Shown here in pieces: positions 896 to 37,281 of a stretch of 38,703 nt of DNA. The stretch spans positions 1 to 38,703 of the forward strand of contig CAIWVW010000024.1 of the NCBI GenBank assembly GCA_903916255.1, given 5' to 3'. The notes below the pieces were generated by a model. It ran no database searches, was not told the DNA's origin, and saw nothing but the letters and a program-made list of their open reading frames with translations. Numbering within the stretch: position 1 is the stretch's first letter; the number at the start of each line of letters is the position of its first letter. The translations under genes and the position numbers were made by a program. This DNA is from an uncultured Bacteroidota bacterium. GTDB lineage: Bacteria; Bacteroidota; Bacteroidia; JABEUT01.

Positions 896-937
896 TAATT
901 ATTTTTTCTAACTTTATGAACTTTTAACTAAAAGTGC

Positions 938-18150: not shown

Positions 18151-18185
18151 AGTAGAAAGTAGAAAGTGAAAAGTAGAAAGTAAAA
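18151..18185. repeat. five tandem heptamers (AGTAGAA type)
   Basis: Positions 18151-18185 are five consecutive 7-nt units: AGTAGAA, AGTAGAA, AGTGAAA, AGTAGAA, AGTAAAA. They fill most of the gap between the thiolase stop and the NlpC/P60 start. No inverted partner is nearby, unlike the other short-period repeats in this window. Confidence 0.85.
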
Positions 18186-19415: not shown

Positions 19416-19431
19416 AGGCTTTTAGTTGAAT

Positions 19432-19526
19432 AAGTGGTAAGTGGATAGTGGTTAGTGATTAGTAAACCTTTTAGGAATATGTTCAAGTTTTTAAACTATA
19501 CACTAACCACTATCCACTTACCACTT
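19432..19526. repeat. hairpin of heptamer-repeat arms, 26-bp perfect inverted repeat
   Basis: The left arm (19432-19457) and right arm (19501-19526) are exact reverse complements over 26 bp, with a 43-nt loop. The arm is built of near-identical 7-nt units (AAGTGGT, AAGTGGA, TAGTGGT, TAGTGAT). It lies between two divergent genes, so it is not a normal terminator position. The right arm ends just before the -7 box of the MFS gene. Confidence 0.95.
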
Positions 19527-28897: not shown

Positions 28898-28900
28898 AAA

Positions 28901-28986
28901 GTTTTTAAAGTTCATAAAGTTGAAAGGAAAGCTTTATGGATTTTAAAAACTTTATGAACTTTACGAACTTTATGAACTTTAAAAAC
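28901..28986. repeat. hairpin of 9-nt-repeat arms around the heptose kinase start, 21-bp perfect inverted repeat
   Basis: The arms 28901-28921 and 28966-28986 are exact reverse complements over 21 bp. They consist of 9-nt units such as AACTTTATG, and the right side has four units in a row (28949-28984). The ATG at 28936 and a purine-rich AAAGGAAAG before it lie in the 44-nt loop. Confidence 0.95.
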
Positions 28987-29976
28987 TTAAAAGAAATATT
29001 CGATTCATTCAATACGTTGAAGGTCCTCATTATAGGAGACCTTATGGTGGATGTTTACTACTGGGGAGATGTAAGCCGCATATCGCCGGAAGCGCCTGTT
29101 CCGATTGTTGCGGTAAGTAAAAAGGAAAGCCGTATGGGTGGTGCCGCGAATGTGGCAATAAACATACAGGCTATGGGCGCAACACCCATTTTATGCGGCG
29201 TAATTGGTGCTGATTCCAATGGTGAGAAATTGGTTAGAATTTTAAAGGAAAAGAAACTACCGACCGAAGGCATTCTTCTTTCAGAAGACCGCCCTACTAC
29301 CACGAAAACCCGTATCATCAGCAGCAATCATCACATTGTTAGGATTGATGATGAAACGGATGAATTCATTGGCGAAAAACTGACCAAGAAACTTTTGGAA
29401 CAAATAGAAAAATTTATAAAAGCCGGAAAAGCGGATGTCATCATTTTTGAAGATTACGACAAAGGTGTTATTTCTCCCGAACTAATTAAAAAAGTGACTG
29501 CATTAGCTAAGAAAAATAAAATCCCTACTGTAGTCGACCCCAAAAAGAGAAACTTCACCGACTACAATGAAGTTACCTTATTCAAACCAAATTTGAAAGA
29601 ATTGCGTGAAGGGTTGAAAGTAGAGGTACAAGCCGGAGATTTTAAACAGGTGCAAGCCGTTACCGAACAGCTCCGTAAAAGCCAGAAAATAGCCAATGTG
29701 CTTGTTACCTTGTCCGAGCATGGGGTATTTATCAATTCGGATAAAGAAAAGAAACTGGTTCCGGCGCATATCCGCAAAATATCGGATGTTTCCGGTGCGG
29801 GAGATACGGTAGTAAGTATTGCTGCATTGTGTTGCGCGCTTAATTTACCACCCGTGGAAATGGCATTCTTGTCCAATCTGGCAGGCGGACAAGTATGTGA
29901 AAAAACAGGCGTTGTTCCGGTAGATAAAAAGCAATTGCTGGAAGAAGCCATGCAATTTATGAATGGAACCAAATGA
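28936..29976 (+). CDS. rfaE1: D-glycero-beta-D-manno-heptose-7-phosphate kinase (RfaE1/HldE kinase domain)
   Basis: The 346-residue PfkB/ribokinase-fold enzyme phosphorylates heptose 7-phosphate for the LPS inner core. Domain-typical motifs are IGDLMVDVYYWG, RISPEAPVPI, RMGGAANVA, IFEDYDKGV, VVDPKKRN and DVSGAGDT with the catalytic Asp (D290). The nucleotidyltransferase half of bifunctional HldE is absent. The first 18 residues (repeating NFM/NFT/NFK) are translated repeat DNA and look unstructured. The ATG at 28936 is supported by the purine-rich stretch before it, but ATGs at 28954 and 28972 are alternatives. It overlaps the next gene by 4 bp. Confidence 0.85.
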   Translation: MDFKNFMNFTNFMNFKNLKEIFDSFNTLKVLIIGDLMVDVYYWGDVSRISPEAPVPIVAVSKKESRMGGAANVAINIQAMGATPILCGVIGADSNGEKLVRILKEKKLPTEGILLSEDRPTTTKTRIISSNHHIVRIDDETDEFIGEKLTKKLLEQIEKFIKAGKADVIIFEDYDKGVISPELIKKVTALAKKNKIPTVVDPKKRNFTDYNEVTLFKPNLKELREGLKVEVQAGDFKQVQAVTEQLRKSQKIANVLVTLSEHGVFINSDKEKKLVPAHIRKISDVSGAGDTVVSIAALCCALNLPPVEMAFLSNLAGGQVCEKTGVVPVDKKQLLEEAMQFMNGTK

Positions 29977-32966: not shown

Positions 32967-33377
32967 TTAAAAGCCTTTGTTGGAGCGCGTTTTCTTCTTT
33001 TCAGAATTAATTTTCTTGGCTTTTAACCTCTTTTCTTTACTTTGTTTGCTGCGCTTGGTTGGGATGCGTTTCTTTTTCTTTTTAAATGCCTTTTCAAGCA
33101 GTTCATAAAATTTCTCAATCGTATTCCGTTTGTTTAAAAGCTGGCTGCGGTCCTCCTGTGATACTATTTTCAGGATACCTTCTTTATTGATAAACCCGCC
33201 CAGTTTTTTGGCAACCAACTCTTTTTGTTCAGCGGCTAGCAAGTTGGAGTTCAAATAATCAAAATGAAGTTCTACCTTCGTAGATAATTTATTCACATTT
33301 TGACCGCCTTTACCACTGCTTCTGCTCATAGTAAACTTCCATTCGGAAGAAAAATCGGTATCCCTGATAGCGTACAT
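32967..33377 (-). CDS. arfB: peptidyl-tRNA hydrolase ArfB (ribosome rescue)
   Basis: The 136-residue class-I release-factor-like protein has the catalytic GGQ (24-26) in SRSSGKGGQNVNKLSTKVEL and no codon-recognition domain. The C-terminal third is very basic (for example KKKKKRIPTKRSKQSKEKR), the tail that enters the empty mRNA channel of stalled ribosomes. It hydrolyses peptidyl-tRNA on non-stop complexes. It is divergent from the amidase gene; the two share a start region in which a short-period repeat hairpin lies 19 bp before its ATG. Confidence 0.92.
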   Translation of the reverse strand: MYAIRDTDFSSEWKFTMSRSSGKGGQNVNKLSTKVELHFDYLNSNLLAAEQKELVAKKLGGFINKEGILKIVSQEDRSQLLNKRNTIEKFYELLEKAFKKKKKRIPTKRSKQSKEKRLKAKKINSEKKKTRSNKGF

Positions 33378-33395
33378 TCAGTTTATAAAGTCCGT

Positions 33396-33454
33396 AAAGT
33401 TATAAAGTTTATAAAGTTCGTGTTTACTTTTTGCTTTATAAACTTTATAACTTT
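33396..33454. repeat. hairpin of 9-nt-repeat arms inside the amidase leader, 21-bp perfect inverted repeat
   Basis: The arms 33396-33416 and 33434-33454 are exact reverse complements over 21 bp with a 17-nt loop. The arms are made of 9-nt units (TTTATAAAG type), and further units precede the left arm from 33381. The GTG at 33420 lies in the loop. The right arm is translated as FINFITF, the hydrophobic core of the amidase signal peptide. Confidence 0.95.
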
Positions 33455-34646
33455 TTCCTCATTTGCGCAAAATCAGCAAGAATATTATACTAAAAAGCTG
33501 GAAACCTATTTCTCCAAAGACCATAAAGTAAAGGACTTTGTAAGGATAAACGAAACCGGGATTTCAATTTTTGATGGAAACTCTTCCGTGCTCGAAATAA
33601 AACTGAACTGGGTTGAGGTGAGTGTGCTGTCGCATGTAATCAGCACAATTTCCGAGCCGGAACTGAAGAAACTTTTAATAGATAAAAAAGACAGTTTGCA
33701 ATTTTACCTGAATAGGGATTCTATAAAGGAAAGGAGCTCGCCCCATTCGCTCAAAGGTATGAAAATAGCCATTGACCCGGGCCATATTGGAGGGGCTTAT
33801 CACATGGGTGAAACGGAAAGCAGATGCATGACATTGAACATTGACAGCACCAAAAAAATTCAGTTGGTGGAAGGCAATTTATCCTTTTTTACCGCCATGA
33901 TTTTGAAGCATAAGTTGGATAGTATGGGTGCACAAGTTATGCTTACAAGGCCTGATACCGGCATCTCTTCATTAGGAATAAGCTTTTTTGAATGGAAGGA
34001 AAAAATAAAAAACAAAACCTATCTCGACAGTTTGCGGAAAAATAATCTCCTTTCTGAAAAAGCGTTGCATGCCTTGAATGAACATTTACCCGATAAAGTT
34101 TTGTTTACAGACGTTTTCAGTTCGATAGATATGGCTGCGCGGGCAAAAAAAATTAATGCATTTCAGCCCGATATTACGGTCATAATCCATTACAACGTAA
34201 ATGAAAAGAACACCGGCTGGAATCATACTACCGATAAGGATTTCGTGATGGCTTTTGTGCCCGGTTGCACAACATCCGAGGATTTAAAAACATTGGCCGG
34301 ACGATTAAATTTTCTGCGGTTATTATTAAGCCCCGATATTGAAAATTCTGTTAACCTTTCTTCTGCCGTCGCAAAAAATATTTCCTCCAAATTAAATGTG
34401 CCGTTGGCGGGAAAAGAAGATGCTACCTATCTTTCAGAACGATGTCTATCAACTCCCGCAAAAGGCGTCTATTCCCGAGATTTGGCGCTTACACGGCTTA
34501 TCAAAGGCCCGTTGGTTTATGGTGAACCGCTATACCAGGATAATGCTCAAGAATGTATTTTGCTCACTACCCCAAATTCGGATCGGTTAAAATTAGTGGC
34601 AGAAGCGTATTTTGAAGGGATATTGGAATATATAGAAGCAAAGTAA
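33420..34646 (+). CDS. N-acetylmuramoyl-L-alanine amidase (AmiC type)
   Basis: About 408 residues. The amidase_3 domain has the zinc ligands in IAIDPGHIGG (first His), the Glu of VEGNLSFF and the His of VIIHYNVN, with VMLTRPDTG between. It cuts the amide bond between muramic acid and the stem peptide in the periplasm. The start is uncertain: the frame is open from a TTG at 33300 inside arfB, and no ATG precedes the signal peptide. GTG 33420 gives MFTFCFINFITFSSFA-Q, a hydrophobic core with no basic lead. The codons just upstream encode VRKVIKFIKF, an ideal basic region, so a non-standard start further up is possible. Confidence 0.82.
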   Translation: MFTFCFINFITFSSFAQNQQEYYTKKLETYFSKDHKVKDFVRINETGISIFDGNSSVLEIKLNWVEVSVLSHVISTISEPELKKLLIDKKDSLQFYLNRDSIKERSSPHSLKGMKIAIDPGHIGGAYHMGETESRCMTLNIDSTKKIQLVEGNLSFFTAMILKHKLDSMGAQVMLTRPDTGISSLGISFFEWKEKIKNKTYLDSLRKNNLLSEKALHALNEHLPDKVLFTDVFSSIDMAARAKKINAFQPDITVIIHYNVNEKNTGWNHTTDKDFVMAFVPGCTTSEDLKTLAGRLNFLRLLLSPDIENSVNLSSAVAKNISSKLNVPLAGKEDATYLSERCLSTPAKGVYSRDLALTRLIKGPLVYGEPLYQDNAQECILLTTPNSDRLKLVAEAYFEGILEYIEAK

Positions 34647-34657
34647 GGACCTATTTT

Positions 34658-34774
34658 CAACACAGAGTTCACGGAGTTTTCAGAGTTTCACAGAGAAAAT
34701 TCAATTTGTTCTGACGAAAAATATATGGTGCATTTTCTTTTTGAAACTCATTTTTCTCTGTGGCCTTTGTGTTG
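34658..34774. repeat. imperfect inverted repeat with CACAGAG-type 9-nt units
   Basis: The left side (34658-34688) has about four 9-nt-like units (CACAGAGTT, CACGGAGTTT, TCAGAGTTT, CACAGAGA). The right side (34744-34774) carries the inverted counterpart; the outer 19 bases pair at 15 positions, and GAGTTTC/GAAACTC pair further in. It fills the gap between the convergent amidase and priA genes and could end both transcripts. Confidence 0.75.
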
Positions 34775-34782
34775 AGAAGAAT

Positions 34783-37281
34783 CTACTGCGGGTCCACATC
34801 AATCTTAATCCTGACTTTCGCATAGTCCTTCCCTTTTTTCAAAAATACATTGATAGAATCAACTACCATATTTTTCATTTGAAGGGAATATTTCTCCCGT
34901 TCAATCTTCAATAATATTTTTTTCTGATAAAAATTCTGCACTTTAGTAACAAGTGGGTATTCCGGGCCTAAAACGCGGTCAATGCCAAAACGTTTTTTCA
35001 ATGCTTCTGCAAGTATGGGCGACATCGCATCCAAATCCATTTGGCTCTTGTGGCTAAGGGTTATTTCAATCAGGCGAGTAAACGGAGGATAAGCAAAGTT
35101 TTTCCGTTCTTCAATCTGGTCGTAGTACATGCCGATATAGTCGTTGTTCATTACCCTTGCAATTACCGGATGGTGCACATTATAAGCCTGCACAACTACT
35201 TTGCCACGTTTGTTTTTTCTGCCCGCACGCCCGCTTACCTGCGCCAGCATCTGGAATGTTTTTTCTGTCGAACGGAAATCAGGGAAGTATAAACCCGCAT
35301 CAGCATTCAGTATCCCGACTATGCTCACATTGTCGAAATCGAGGCCTTTGGTTACCATTTGCGTGCCAACTAATATATCCACTTTGCGTTCTTCAAATGA
35401 ATTTATGATTTCGGTGTGTGCATTCTTTTTTCGTGTAGAATCCAAATCCATGCGGGCTGTTCGGGCTTTCGGGAAAAAGGTTGTCAATTCCTCTTCTATC
35501 TTTTCTGTGCCAAACCCTTTGGTCGAAATTAACGGGCTTCCGCAAGCAGGGCAAATTTTTGGAAGTTGTATGGAGTAACCGCAGTAATGGCATCGCAGTA
35601 AATCCGCTTTTTTGTGATAAGTCAAACTCACATCACAGCGAATGCATTGCGGAACATTGGCACACACCTGGCATTCTATAAAGTTGGCAAAGCCCCGCCT
35701 GTTCTGGAAAAGAATAACCTGTTCGTTATTGTTCAACGCCTCTTCCACACAAGTTAATAAATGCGGAGTGAACATAGATTTCATCAACTTTTTCCGCGTA
35801 TCTTCTTTTAAATCGCAAACAACTATTTCAGGCATTTCCATACCGCCAAAGCGGGTAAATAATTCCACCAATCCGAATTTTCCCGATACTGCATTGTGGT
35901 ATGTTTCCACCGATGGAGTTGCGGAGCCAAGTATTACTTTTGCATTACAAAGCGATGCCAGATAAATGGCTGCATCACGTGCATTATAGCGGGGTGCAGG
36001 GTCCTGTTGCTTGAAAGAACTGTCATGTTCTTCATCAATAATAATAAGTCCGAGATTTGAGAATGGAAGAAACAAAGCAGAGCGTGTTCCCACTATAACG
36101 GAATAATCAATTTTATTTGGGTTTATTAAACCATTCCAAATTTCCACCCGTTCATTATCGCCGAATTTGGAATGGTAAACACCTACTTTATTTCCCCAGC
36201 GTTTTTTCAGGCGGTTTACCAATTGAGCCGTGAGGGCTATTTCCGGCAACATATACAAGACTTTTTTATTTTGCTTTATTGCATCATCAATCAGTTGCAT
36301 GTATAATTCCGTTTTGCCGCTGGATGTTACCCCATGCAGCAAAACAACATTTTTCTCTTTAAATAAATTATTTATTTTTTCAAGCCCTTCTTGTTGTATA
36401 AGCGAGAGTTCATTGGTCTCCAATATTCGTTCTTCCGATAATTTTAAACGGGAAACTTCCGCTTCATAAATTTCCAGAATATTTTTTTTCACCAGTGAAT
36501 TCAATGATGACAACGAACTTCCTGAAGAACCTAACAACGCACTTTTCTTAACAGGGATATGCTTCTTGGTATGCCATTCGGAAAGTTGCAAATATTTCAT
36601 CAATATATCCAACTGGATTACCGCTTTCTTTTCGAGTTGGTTAAAAATACCTTGTAATTTGTCTTCCGTTATGCTTTCAGTAAAGCGCACATAACTTTCT
36701 TTTTTCGGTTTGAACTCGCCTTTCATTTCCTCCATTACACGTGCCGCACCTTTAGTAATAAGGCTTTGAATAACCGGCTGAATGTTTTTTATTCCCAACA
36801 CATCGGCGGTTTCCGCCATGCTTAACTCAATTTTTACTTCTAGTGCCTCTACCAGTTTCCATTCTTTTTCTGTGAAATAATCTTCAGCAACTTCTTCTAC
36901 CGAAAAACTTTCATTTTTTATAATGCGTGTTTCGCTGCTAAAGCGCAGGCCGGAAGGCAAAGCGGCATTCATCACATCACCCGGAGTACACATATAATAC
37001 GTCGCAATCCAATCCCAAAAAGCAAGGTGGGTTTCGTTTACAATTGGTTTTGGATCTAATATATCCTGAATGTATTTCGCTTCATATCCTTTAGGCGCTT
37101 TGTCGTGTATTTTAGCAATAACACCCACATAAAACTTGCTCTTGCCAAATTGAATCACCACCCGTTGTCCTTGTAGTACCAAATCGTTCCAATCCCAGGG
37201 AATGCGATAGGTGAAAAGGTTAGGAACCGCAAGCGGTACAATAATATCGGCAAATAAAGTGGTGCGTTCTACAGCGGACAT
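34783..37281 (-). CDS. priA: primosomal protein N' (replication restart helicase)
   Basis: At 832 residues PriA is full length. In order it has an N-terminal 3'-DNA-binding domain (TTLFADIIVPLAVPNLFTYRIP), Walker A in GVTSSGKTELY, Walker B DEEH followed by SSFKQQDPAPRYNARD, and two zinc sites with eight Cys between CQVC and CPAC. The helicase C-terminal motifs are LVGTQMVTKGLDFDNV and QVSGRAGR. It reloads the replisome at collapsed forks. An upstream ATG at 37314 would add 11 residues coded by repeat DNA; the ATG at 37281 leaves the conserved start and is preferred. Confidence 0.95.
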   Translation of the reverse strand: MSAVERTTLFADIIVPLAVPNLFTYRIPWDWNDLVLQGQRVVIQFGKSKFYVGVIAKIHDKAPKGYEAKYIQDILDPKPIVNETHLAFWDWIATYYMCTPGDVMNAALPSGLRFSSETRIIKNESFSVEEVAEDYFTEKEWKLVEALEVKIELSMAETADVLGIKNIQPVIQSLITKGAARVMEEMKGEFKPKKESYVRFTESITEDKLQGIFNQLEKKAVIQLDILMKYLQLSEWHTKKHIPVKKSALLGSSGSSLSSLNSLVKKNILEIYEAEVSRLKLSEERILETNELSLIQQEGLEKINNLFKEKNVVLLHGVTSSGKTELYMQLIDDAIKQNKKVLYMLPEIALTAQLVNRLKKRWGNKVGVYHSKFGDNERVEIWNGLINPNKIDYSVIVGTRSALFLPFSNLGLIIIDEEHDSSFKQQDPAPRYNARDAAIYLASLCNAKVILGSATPSVETYHNAVSGKFGLVELFTRFGGMEMPEIVVCDLKEDTRKKLMKSMFTPHLLTCVEEALNNNEQVILFQNRRGFANFIECQVCANVPQCIRCDVSLTYHKKADLLRCHYCGYSIQLPKICPACGSPLISTKGFGTEKIEEELTTFFPKARTARMDLDSTRKKNAHTEIINSFEERKVDILVGTQMVTKGLDFDNVSIVGILNADAGLYFPDFRSTEKTFQMLAQVSGRAGRKNKRGKVVVQAYNVHHPVIARVMNNDYIGMYYDQIEERKNFAYPPFTRLIEITLSHKSQMDLDAMSPILAEALKKRFGIDRVLGPEYPLVTKVQNFYQKKILLKIEREKYSLQMKNMVVDSINVFLKKGKDYAKVRIKIDVDPQ

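Follow-up and report, generated by a model that had tools for sequence, protein, structure and literature searches.

Origin of the amidase signal peptide

Where does a cell-wall amidase obtain its secretion signal when a hairpin of short repeats occupies the beginning of its gene? This question is raised by one locus of the window, i.e., the whole stretch of 38,703 nucleotides analyzed here, which belongs to an uncultured Bacteroidota bacterium (genome G000; G002 denotes its sister species, and other G numbers its genus mates). The gene, drawn from the candidate start GTG 33420 (33420-34646, plus strand), matches the N-acetylmuramoyl-L-alanine amidase family Amidase_3 (Pfam PF01520, 42.2 bits versus a cut-off of 27, E-value 1.1e-10). 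Its divergent neighbor on the minus strand (32967-33377) has a match to the RF-1 domain and is putatively named ArfB-like. The ATG of this neighbor adjoins a repeat tract (about 33380-33454, plus strand) made of 9-nt units of the AAAGTTYRT type, with their complement in the right arm. The tract extends beyond a perfect inverted repeat with arms of 21 nt (33396-33416 and 33434-33454, both given on the plus strand, 100% complementary) and a 17-nt loop (33417-33433), and also contains a direct repeat (33380-33395 and 33406-33421). The predicted RNA fold of the hairpin has an energy of -26.2 kcal/mol (z-score of -5.96), and none of 200 shuffled sequences was equally stable. No Rfam family reached its gathering score anywhere in the window.

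The first-pass annotation of this DNA had read the two arms, in the amidase frame, as the basic lead and hydrophobic core of a signal peptide. The DNA bears out this reading of the letters: positions 33396-33416 encode KVIKFIK and positions 33435-33455 encode FINFITF, followed by SSFA-Q. Cleavage of the precursor would fall after GCG 33465-33467 and before CAA 33468. The G002 homolog, in which an ATG stands opposite GTA 33372-33374, would place the stretch encoding the signal peptide at 33372-33467 on the plus strand. The annotation was also right that no ATG is available and that GTG 33420 lies in the loop, the only canonical starts before the mature part being TTG 33300 and this GTG.

Comparison of the amidase among relatives

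The amidase of G002 aligns with that of G000 without gaps through the tract (MHSVYKFCKVTKFVKFMIVFYFINFMTFSSFA-Q), with the array, the frame and the cleavage-like site all kept. At this place, unrelated signal peptides are found in the remaining genus mates with a visible amidase N-terminus (G001, G006, and G010; the gene of G008 is cut by a contig end), as well as in the seven orthologs from outside the genus. This suggests that the tract replaced an older amidase signal before the split of G000 and G002. An unrelated signal peptide conserved upstream among orthologs had been named as the observation that would speak against a repeat-derived signal; the unrelated signals found here sit in the same place and are not conserved.

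The mature amidases of G000 and G002 share 289 of 390 residues, with a dN of 0.19 and a saturated dS of 2.3 over 390 codons. At the nucleotide level, 78 of 93 positions are identical in the signal stretch and 837 of 1170 in the mature gene. Lysines and hydrophobic character are kept in the signal, with two exceptions (R to C and I to T), and 10 of the 11 differing signal-peptide codons are non-synonymous, a pattern that does not show the left arm to be constrained at the level of the protein. It speaks for a loosely constrained signal, or else for constraint or homogenization at the DNA level. The G002 hairpin is weaker and folds differently, which leaves compensatory evolution of the amidase hairpin unsupported.

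Candidate start codons

The position at which translation begins determines how much of the hairpin is read. G002 has an in-frame amidase ATG upstream of the tract, overlapping the ATG of the ArfB-like gene as ATGCAT, and G001 has an ATG aligned near it. In G000 the corresponding codon is GTA 33372, which differs in two bases, suggesting that translation now probably starts elsewhere, with GTG 33420, the position of a second ATG in G002, as the leading candidate. We judge this GTG to be the most likely start in G000 because it is a canonical codon. A start there would leave the basic left arm untranslated, and translation of this arm in G000 thus depends on the start codon.

Candidate starts were compared with a crude signal-peptide rule of our own, which asks for a charged lead, a hydrophobic stretch and a cleavage-like motif, and which rewards the very lysines that the repeat supplies. 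The features of a Sec signal (basic lead, hydrophobic core, cleavage motif) are found by this rule in a start-dependent manner, export itself being predicted. The starts GTA 33372, ATA 33402, ATA 33411, and the upstream ATG of G002 pass; GTG 33420 (for want of charge), TTG 33300, and the second ATG of G002 fail. The first-pass annotation had proposed initiation at GTG 33420 or at ATA 33402, and had advised running a signal-peptide predictor on both. The former is plausible through its ATG counterpart in G002, but leaves the left arm unread and does not pass the rule; the latter passes, but nothing singles it out, as ATA 33411 passes equally. TTG 33300 was discarded: its lead of 40 residues would be encoded antisense to the ArfB-like gene, within that gene, and does not pass the rule either.

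It is conceivable, if somewhat doubtful in our judgment, that translation covers the right arm alone, with the hairpin as a 5'-untranslated junction element and the amidase carrying a short, charge-free signal (MFTFCFINFITFSSFA) from GTG 33420; the left arm would then act at the RNA level, if at all. GTG 33420 is indeed the sole nearby canonical start and aligns with an ATG of G002, the codon changes in the left arm are mostly non-synonymous, and arrays of this family are mostly noncoding (see below). Yet G002 has its in-frame upstream ATG where G001 also has one, the crude rule rejects a charge-free lead, and there are seven other cases in which an ATG precedes a translated AAAG-sense arm within a signal peptide. 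A different possibility, which we find quite improbable, is that the G000 start is an assembly or strain artifact, the real sequence carrying an ATG as in G002. The window does come from a draft assembly of 149 contigs, and G002 has an ATG at the same codon, but two bases separate GTA from ATG and neighboring bases differ too, as expected of real divergence.

A genus-restricted family of junction repeats

The tract belongs to a dispersed family. The 22-mer AAAGTTYRTAAAGTTYRTAAAG has 46 overlapping exact matches in the 3.74-Mb draft genome of G000 and none when reversed, and the 13-mer AAAGTTYNTAAAG has 214 matches versus 15 for its reversed pattern, the latter being about the number expected by chance for 13-mers genome-wide (∼15). 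G002 has 67 matches to the 13-mer versus 13 reversed. In a survey of 100 genomes (our own and 99 others), the 22-mer was present in G000 and in five of ten genus mates (G001, G002, G004, G008, and G009), with no match among 89 class mates. The five genus mates lacking it include a single near-complete genome, G006 (99%); completeness of the other four is 52-84%.

To describe the position of the repeats, we relied on our own clustering of the stretches around the matches listed, in which rarer variants of the 13-mer (e.g., AAAGTTCGTAAAG) on later contigs may be missing, and on gene calls from a simple codon-model caller of our own, whose starts near tracts are uncertain. Among the matches listed, at least 90 clusters were obtained: 60 in gaps between genes of the same strand, 20 in divergent and five in convergent junctions, three at contig edges and two within genes (intragenic counts are 6 of 70 or 2 of 90 under differing rules). 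Noncoding sequence holds 166 of the 180 13-mers in the first 57 stretches. Wherever a cluster has a 5' neighbor, it often reaches the gene start: 49 of 80 such clusters, among the matches listed, end within 20 nt of it or overlap it, mostly at 8-18 nt. The 3' ends of genes are also close (43 of 65 clusters within 20 nt, among the matches listed), which makes the filling of short gaps the simpler reading.

The arms show a strict polarity. Among the matches listed, the AAAG arm lies ahead of the CTTT arm in all mixed clusters of G000 (34/34) and of G002 (8/8), while copies with one arm only, as judged by exact 13-mers, make up 56 of 90 clusters. Relative to the gene, single-orientation clusters are weakly biased (17 CTTT-sense versus seven AAAG-sense with two or more units, 10 versus 15 with one unit). 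Speaking against a preference for gene starts, convergent junctions are not significantly depleted (4/59 versus 25/162 in the background, Fisher p = 0.12), nor are divergent ones significantly enriched (p = 0.44). The possibility that the hairpins are terminators was rejected, as convergent junctions are not enriched (five of 85 placed clusters among the matches listed, and the same comparison with the background).

Could the hairpins at start codons mainly regulate translation or mRNA decay of many genes, their coding overlap being a by-product? We regard this as unlikely. The closeness to gene starts, the strict polarity of the arms, and the retention of an array by G000 and G002 at 15 of 17 aligned junctions (by eye) would all fit such a role, and TAACTGA repeats lying just upstream of starts have been proposed as such sites in the part of that study considered here (PMC4679880). 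Against it, the proximity to 3' ends allows for mere gap filling, the convergent depletion is not significant, one-arm copies are common, single-orientation clusters are only weakly biased relative to the gene, and the 99% complete genus mate G006 has no match.

We give equally little credence as to the artifact to a mobile palindromic element of the REPIN, MITE or RPE kind placed by a transposase. The repeats are dispersed, palindromic and variably present at orthologous sites, and G000 has genes for Y1 transposases of the RAYT family (7 matches). The tracts consist, however, of tandem 9-mers with differing loops rather than of a fixed element, of the seven Y1_Tnp copies of G000 only one has an exact 13-mer nearby, and no target duplication is seen by eye at either the amidase junction or that of a kinase described below. 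Genomes with and without arrays alike have Y1_Tnp (10 of 11 in the genus), which makes a RAYT/REP origin improbable. The single neighboring match is a lone family 13-mer (1546-1558 of L191) beside a short Y1_Tnp ORF (1596-1904).

Turnover of the arrays

For the comparison with G002 we used the surroundings of 35 clusters. Long DNA matches linked them to G000 in 23 locus pairs, and 21 of these were compared. Alignment succeeded for 17 junctions, 15 of which have, by eye, a recognizable array in both species. The exceptions are locus L095, with no array in the aligned part, and the junction of a kinase gene (28936-29976) which we take to be HldE/PfkB-like, where G002 has a remnant only. Copy numbers vary between the two species, often by unit steps. 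The kinase junction holds the second family array of the window (28898-28992, plus strand): G001 has a gap of 6 nt there from the upstream stop to a GTG start, while G000 has an array of ∼95 nt that enters the gene as an array-made N-terminus (MDFKNFMNFTNFMNFKNL). This array also provides the kinase with repeated in-frame ATGs. Another junction of the window (896-937, plus strand) has a single-arm remnant of the family (13-mer at 912-924) before ATG 938.

Arrays also touch genes in other ways. They form the C-termini of two proteins, ANKKVHKVKSL and YKTVYKVKSS (L076, 1303-2253; L087, 2065-3063), whose TAA stops are provided by TTCATAAAG of the arrays. At four loci (L065, L074, L187, and L192) the last CTTTATGAACT unit seems to provide the ATG of the downstream gene (MNS-).

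The window holds further repeats of other units. A hairpin of a ∼7-nt unit (GTGGTTA/GTGGATA versus TAACCAC/TATCCAC) lies between two divergent genes at 19428-19525, indicating that the repeat habit extends beyond one unit. Repeats of CACAGAG type with an inverse copy (ctctgtgg...ttgtgttga) lie at 34660-34785 between the convergent ends of the amidase gene and PriA, and a minus-strand gene is directly preceded, at its start, by a 7-nt tandem repeat (AGTAGAA, 18151-18185).

Recurrence in other predicted signal peptides

The unit has two open frames per strand and is translated with a period of three residues. We listed every long frame that passes through a cluster into a coding stretch in G000 and G002. 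An ATG precedes translated AAAG-sense units in eight cases, seven of which lie in credible predicted signal peptides. In G000 these are L090 (TPM domain), L094 (a lipoprotein-like M28 peptidase), and L177 (TPR); in G002 they are L138 (the amidase), L142 (LysM), L156 (with a weak match to an outer membrane barrel, below the cut-off), L165 (TPR), and L145. The last one is positive by the crude rule, yet looks like a lone chance 13-mer deep in an ordinary gene; the background of this rule is 47 positives among 243 called genes. L090, L142, and L177 each contain one exact 13-mer plus degenerate units.

CTTT-sense units alone occur behind an ATG in ten other cases. The only one called a signal peptide is L081, the G000 ortholog of L156, in which MGKEVKKLNVESRKSVKWSLTLCFINFLLFPFYSFA-Q is read through a degenerate hairpin. 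The remaining cases, including the HldE-like kinase, are not called; the TlpA-like gene L085 of G000 escapes only because of its late ATG and would read KFIKLKVHKVKIGGIIRFVLAFYFMNFITFSLFA-Q from a TTG start. The repeat is thus found in the predicted signal peptides of seven genes besides the amidase, i.e., eight genes in total.

For two of them, orthologs free of the repeat indicate the direction of change. The repeat is absent from all seven orthologs of the M28 lipoprotein, whose lead reads MKRKN- in G002, G003, and G007 versus MKRKSSLQLKVYKVCKVHKAVG- (MKRKSSLQLKVYKVCKVHK-) in G000, suggesting an insertion. All six TlpA-like orthologs have ordinary signals, none with an array signal peptide; in G002 and G003 the gene follows the upstream stop after 2 nt, where G000 has a hairpin that also alters the end of the upstream protein. 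This suggests a replacement. The earlier proposal that a 9-nt repeat supplied the secretion signal of the amidase accordingly gains support from comparative data: its retention in G002, the unrelated signals of G001, G006, and G010, the seven further genes, and the repeat-free orthologs of two of these all point the same way.

A scenario for the conversion of junction repeats

Building on the observed family, its distribution, its sharing at orthologous junctions and its in-frame overlap with genes, we consider it likely that a genus-restricted junction hairpin became the signal peptide of the amidase, and likewise in several genes for exported proteins, the amidase start having probably moved. 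Hairpins of 9-nt units would fill short intergenic gaps and often reach the start codon. Unit-step slippage may lengthen and shorten their tracts, and template switching may add the inverse arm. Between the ArfB-like and amidase genes, a tract would have displaced the earlier amidase signal peptide in the common ancestor of G000 and G002. This replacement may have been tolerated because the unit equals three codons, one of its open frames giving an AAAG arm that reads as lysine and hydrophobic residues and the CTTT arm as hydrophobic residues with Asn or Thr. Read through, the hairpin would yield a basic lead (KVIKFIK), a hydrophobic core (FINFITF), and a cleavage site together with the native SSFA-Q; the precursor would be a Sec substrate, exported and cleaved ahead of Gln. 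Several further genes of this kind would have taken up repeats in the same manner.

A more general claim is that the genus-specific hairpin is a recurrent source of secretion signals, any in-frame tract being a proto-signal peptide, with at least eight genes concerned in two species, by replacement in the amidase and TlpA-like genes and by insertion in the M28 gene. This extension we put forward tentatively, leaning slightly toward doubt.

If the scenario holds, the genus offers a natural case, with repeat-free and repeat-bearing orthologs, of noncoding repeat DNA recruited as a functional segment of a protein. Signal peptides accept many sequence changes, and the genomes compared here display the starting material, the reading frame, and several outcomes reached independently. 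On the practical side, starts and N-termini assigned automatically in these genomes can be erroneous wherever such a tract is close.

Comparison with known repeat systems

Repeats at gene junctions and palindromic repeats in genes are already known. Rickettsia palindromic elements (RPE), as reviewed in PMC10969869, are dispersed palindromic repeats of ∼150 bp that are translated as in-frame parts of protein genes, each family encoding a conserved peptide. The family described here likewise includes a palindromic repeat in frame within host protein genes, but it consists of tandem 9-mers in variable number with differing loops, is mostly intergenic, and is translated in the AAAG sense in signal peptides.

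The TAACTGA heptamer repeats described by MacGregor are, according to the sections considered (PMC4679880), found in Beggiatoaceae, cyanobacteria and some Bacteroidetes, in gaps just upstream of starts; they undergo unit-step indels between related strains and sometimes overlap the ends of ORFs. They share with the present arrays the short tandem intergenic units close upstream of starts and the change by unit steps. They are, however, 7-nt direct repeats, with one indirect case in the main genome and forward units that stop all three frames, whereas the 9-nt AAAGTTYRT unit leaves two frames open per strand and is accompanied by an inverse arm. The main text of that paper does not use the term "signal peptide".

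PARCEL elements (palindromic amphipathic repeat coding elements; PMC2996958) are coding repeats with dyad symmetry and amphipathic residues in membrane-targeted proteins. Palindromy and amphipathic coding are common to both, but PARCELs are 25-residue domains inside ORFs that have spread between taxa, while the present repeats have a period of three residues, lie at gene ends and occur in one genus. REP/REPIN sequences, which passages of PMC3733652 and PMC3116915 present as extragenic palindromes in many copies associated with RAYT transposases, differ in that the family here has no tagged single palindrome and no apparent link to the presence of RAYT.

Neither RPE, TAACTGA repeats nor PARCELs agree with the present family in both the unit and its use in signal peptides. 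Across titles and the beginnings of abstracts, our literature search found no description of the AAAGTTYRT repeat or of bacterial signal peptides derived from repeats. What is new is the recurrent use of such repeats as signal peptides; the best reading of the comparisons made here is that noncoding junction repeats have been turned into signal peptides, in the amidase and elsewhere in the genus.
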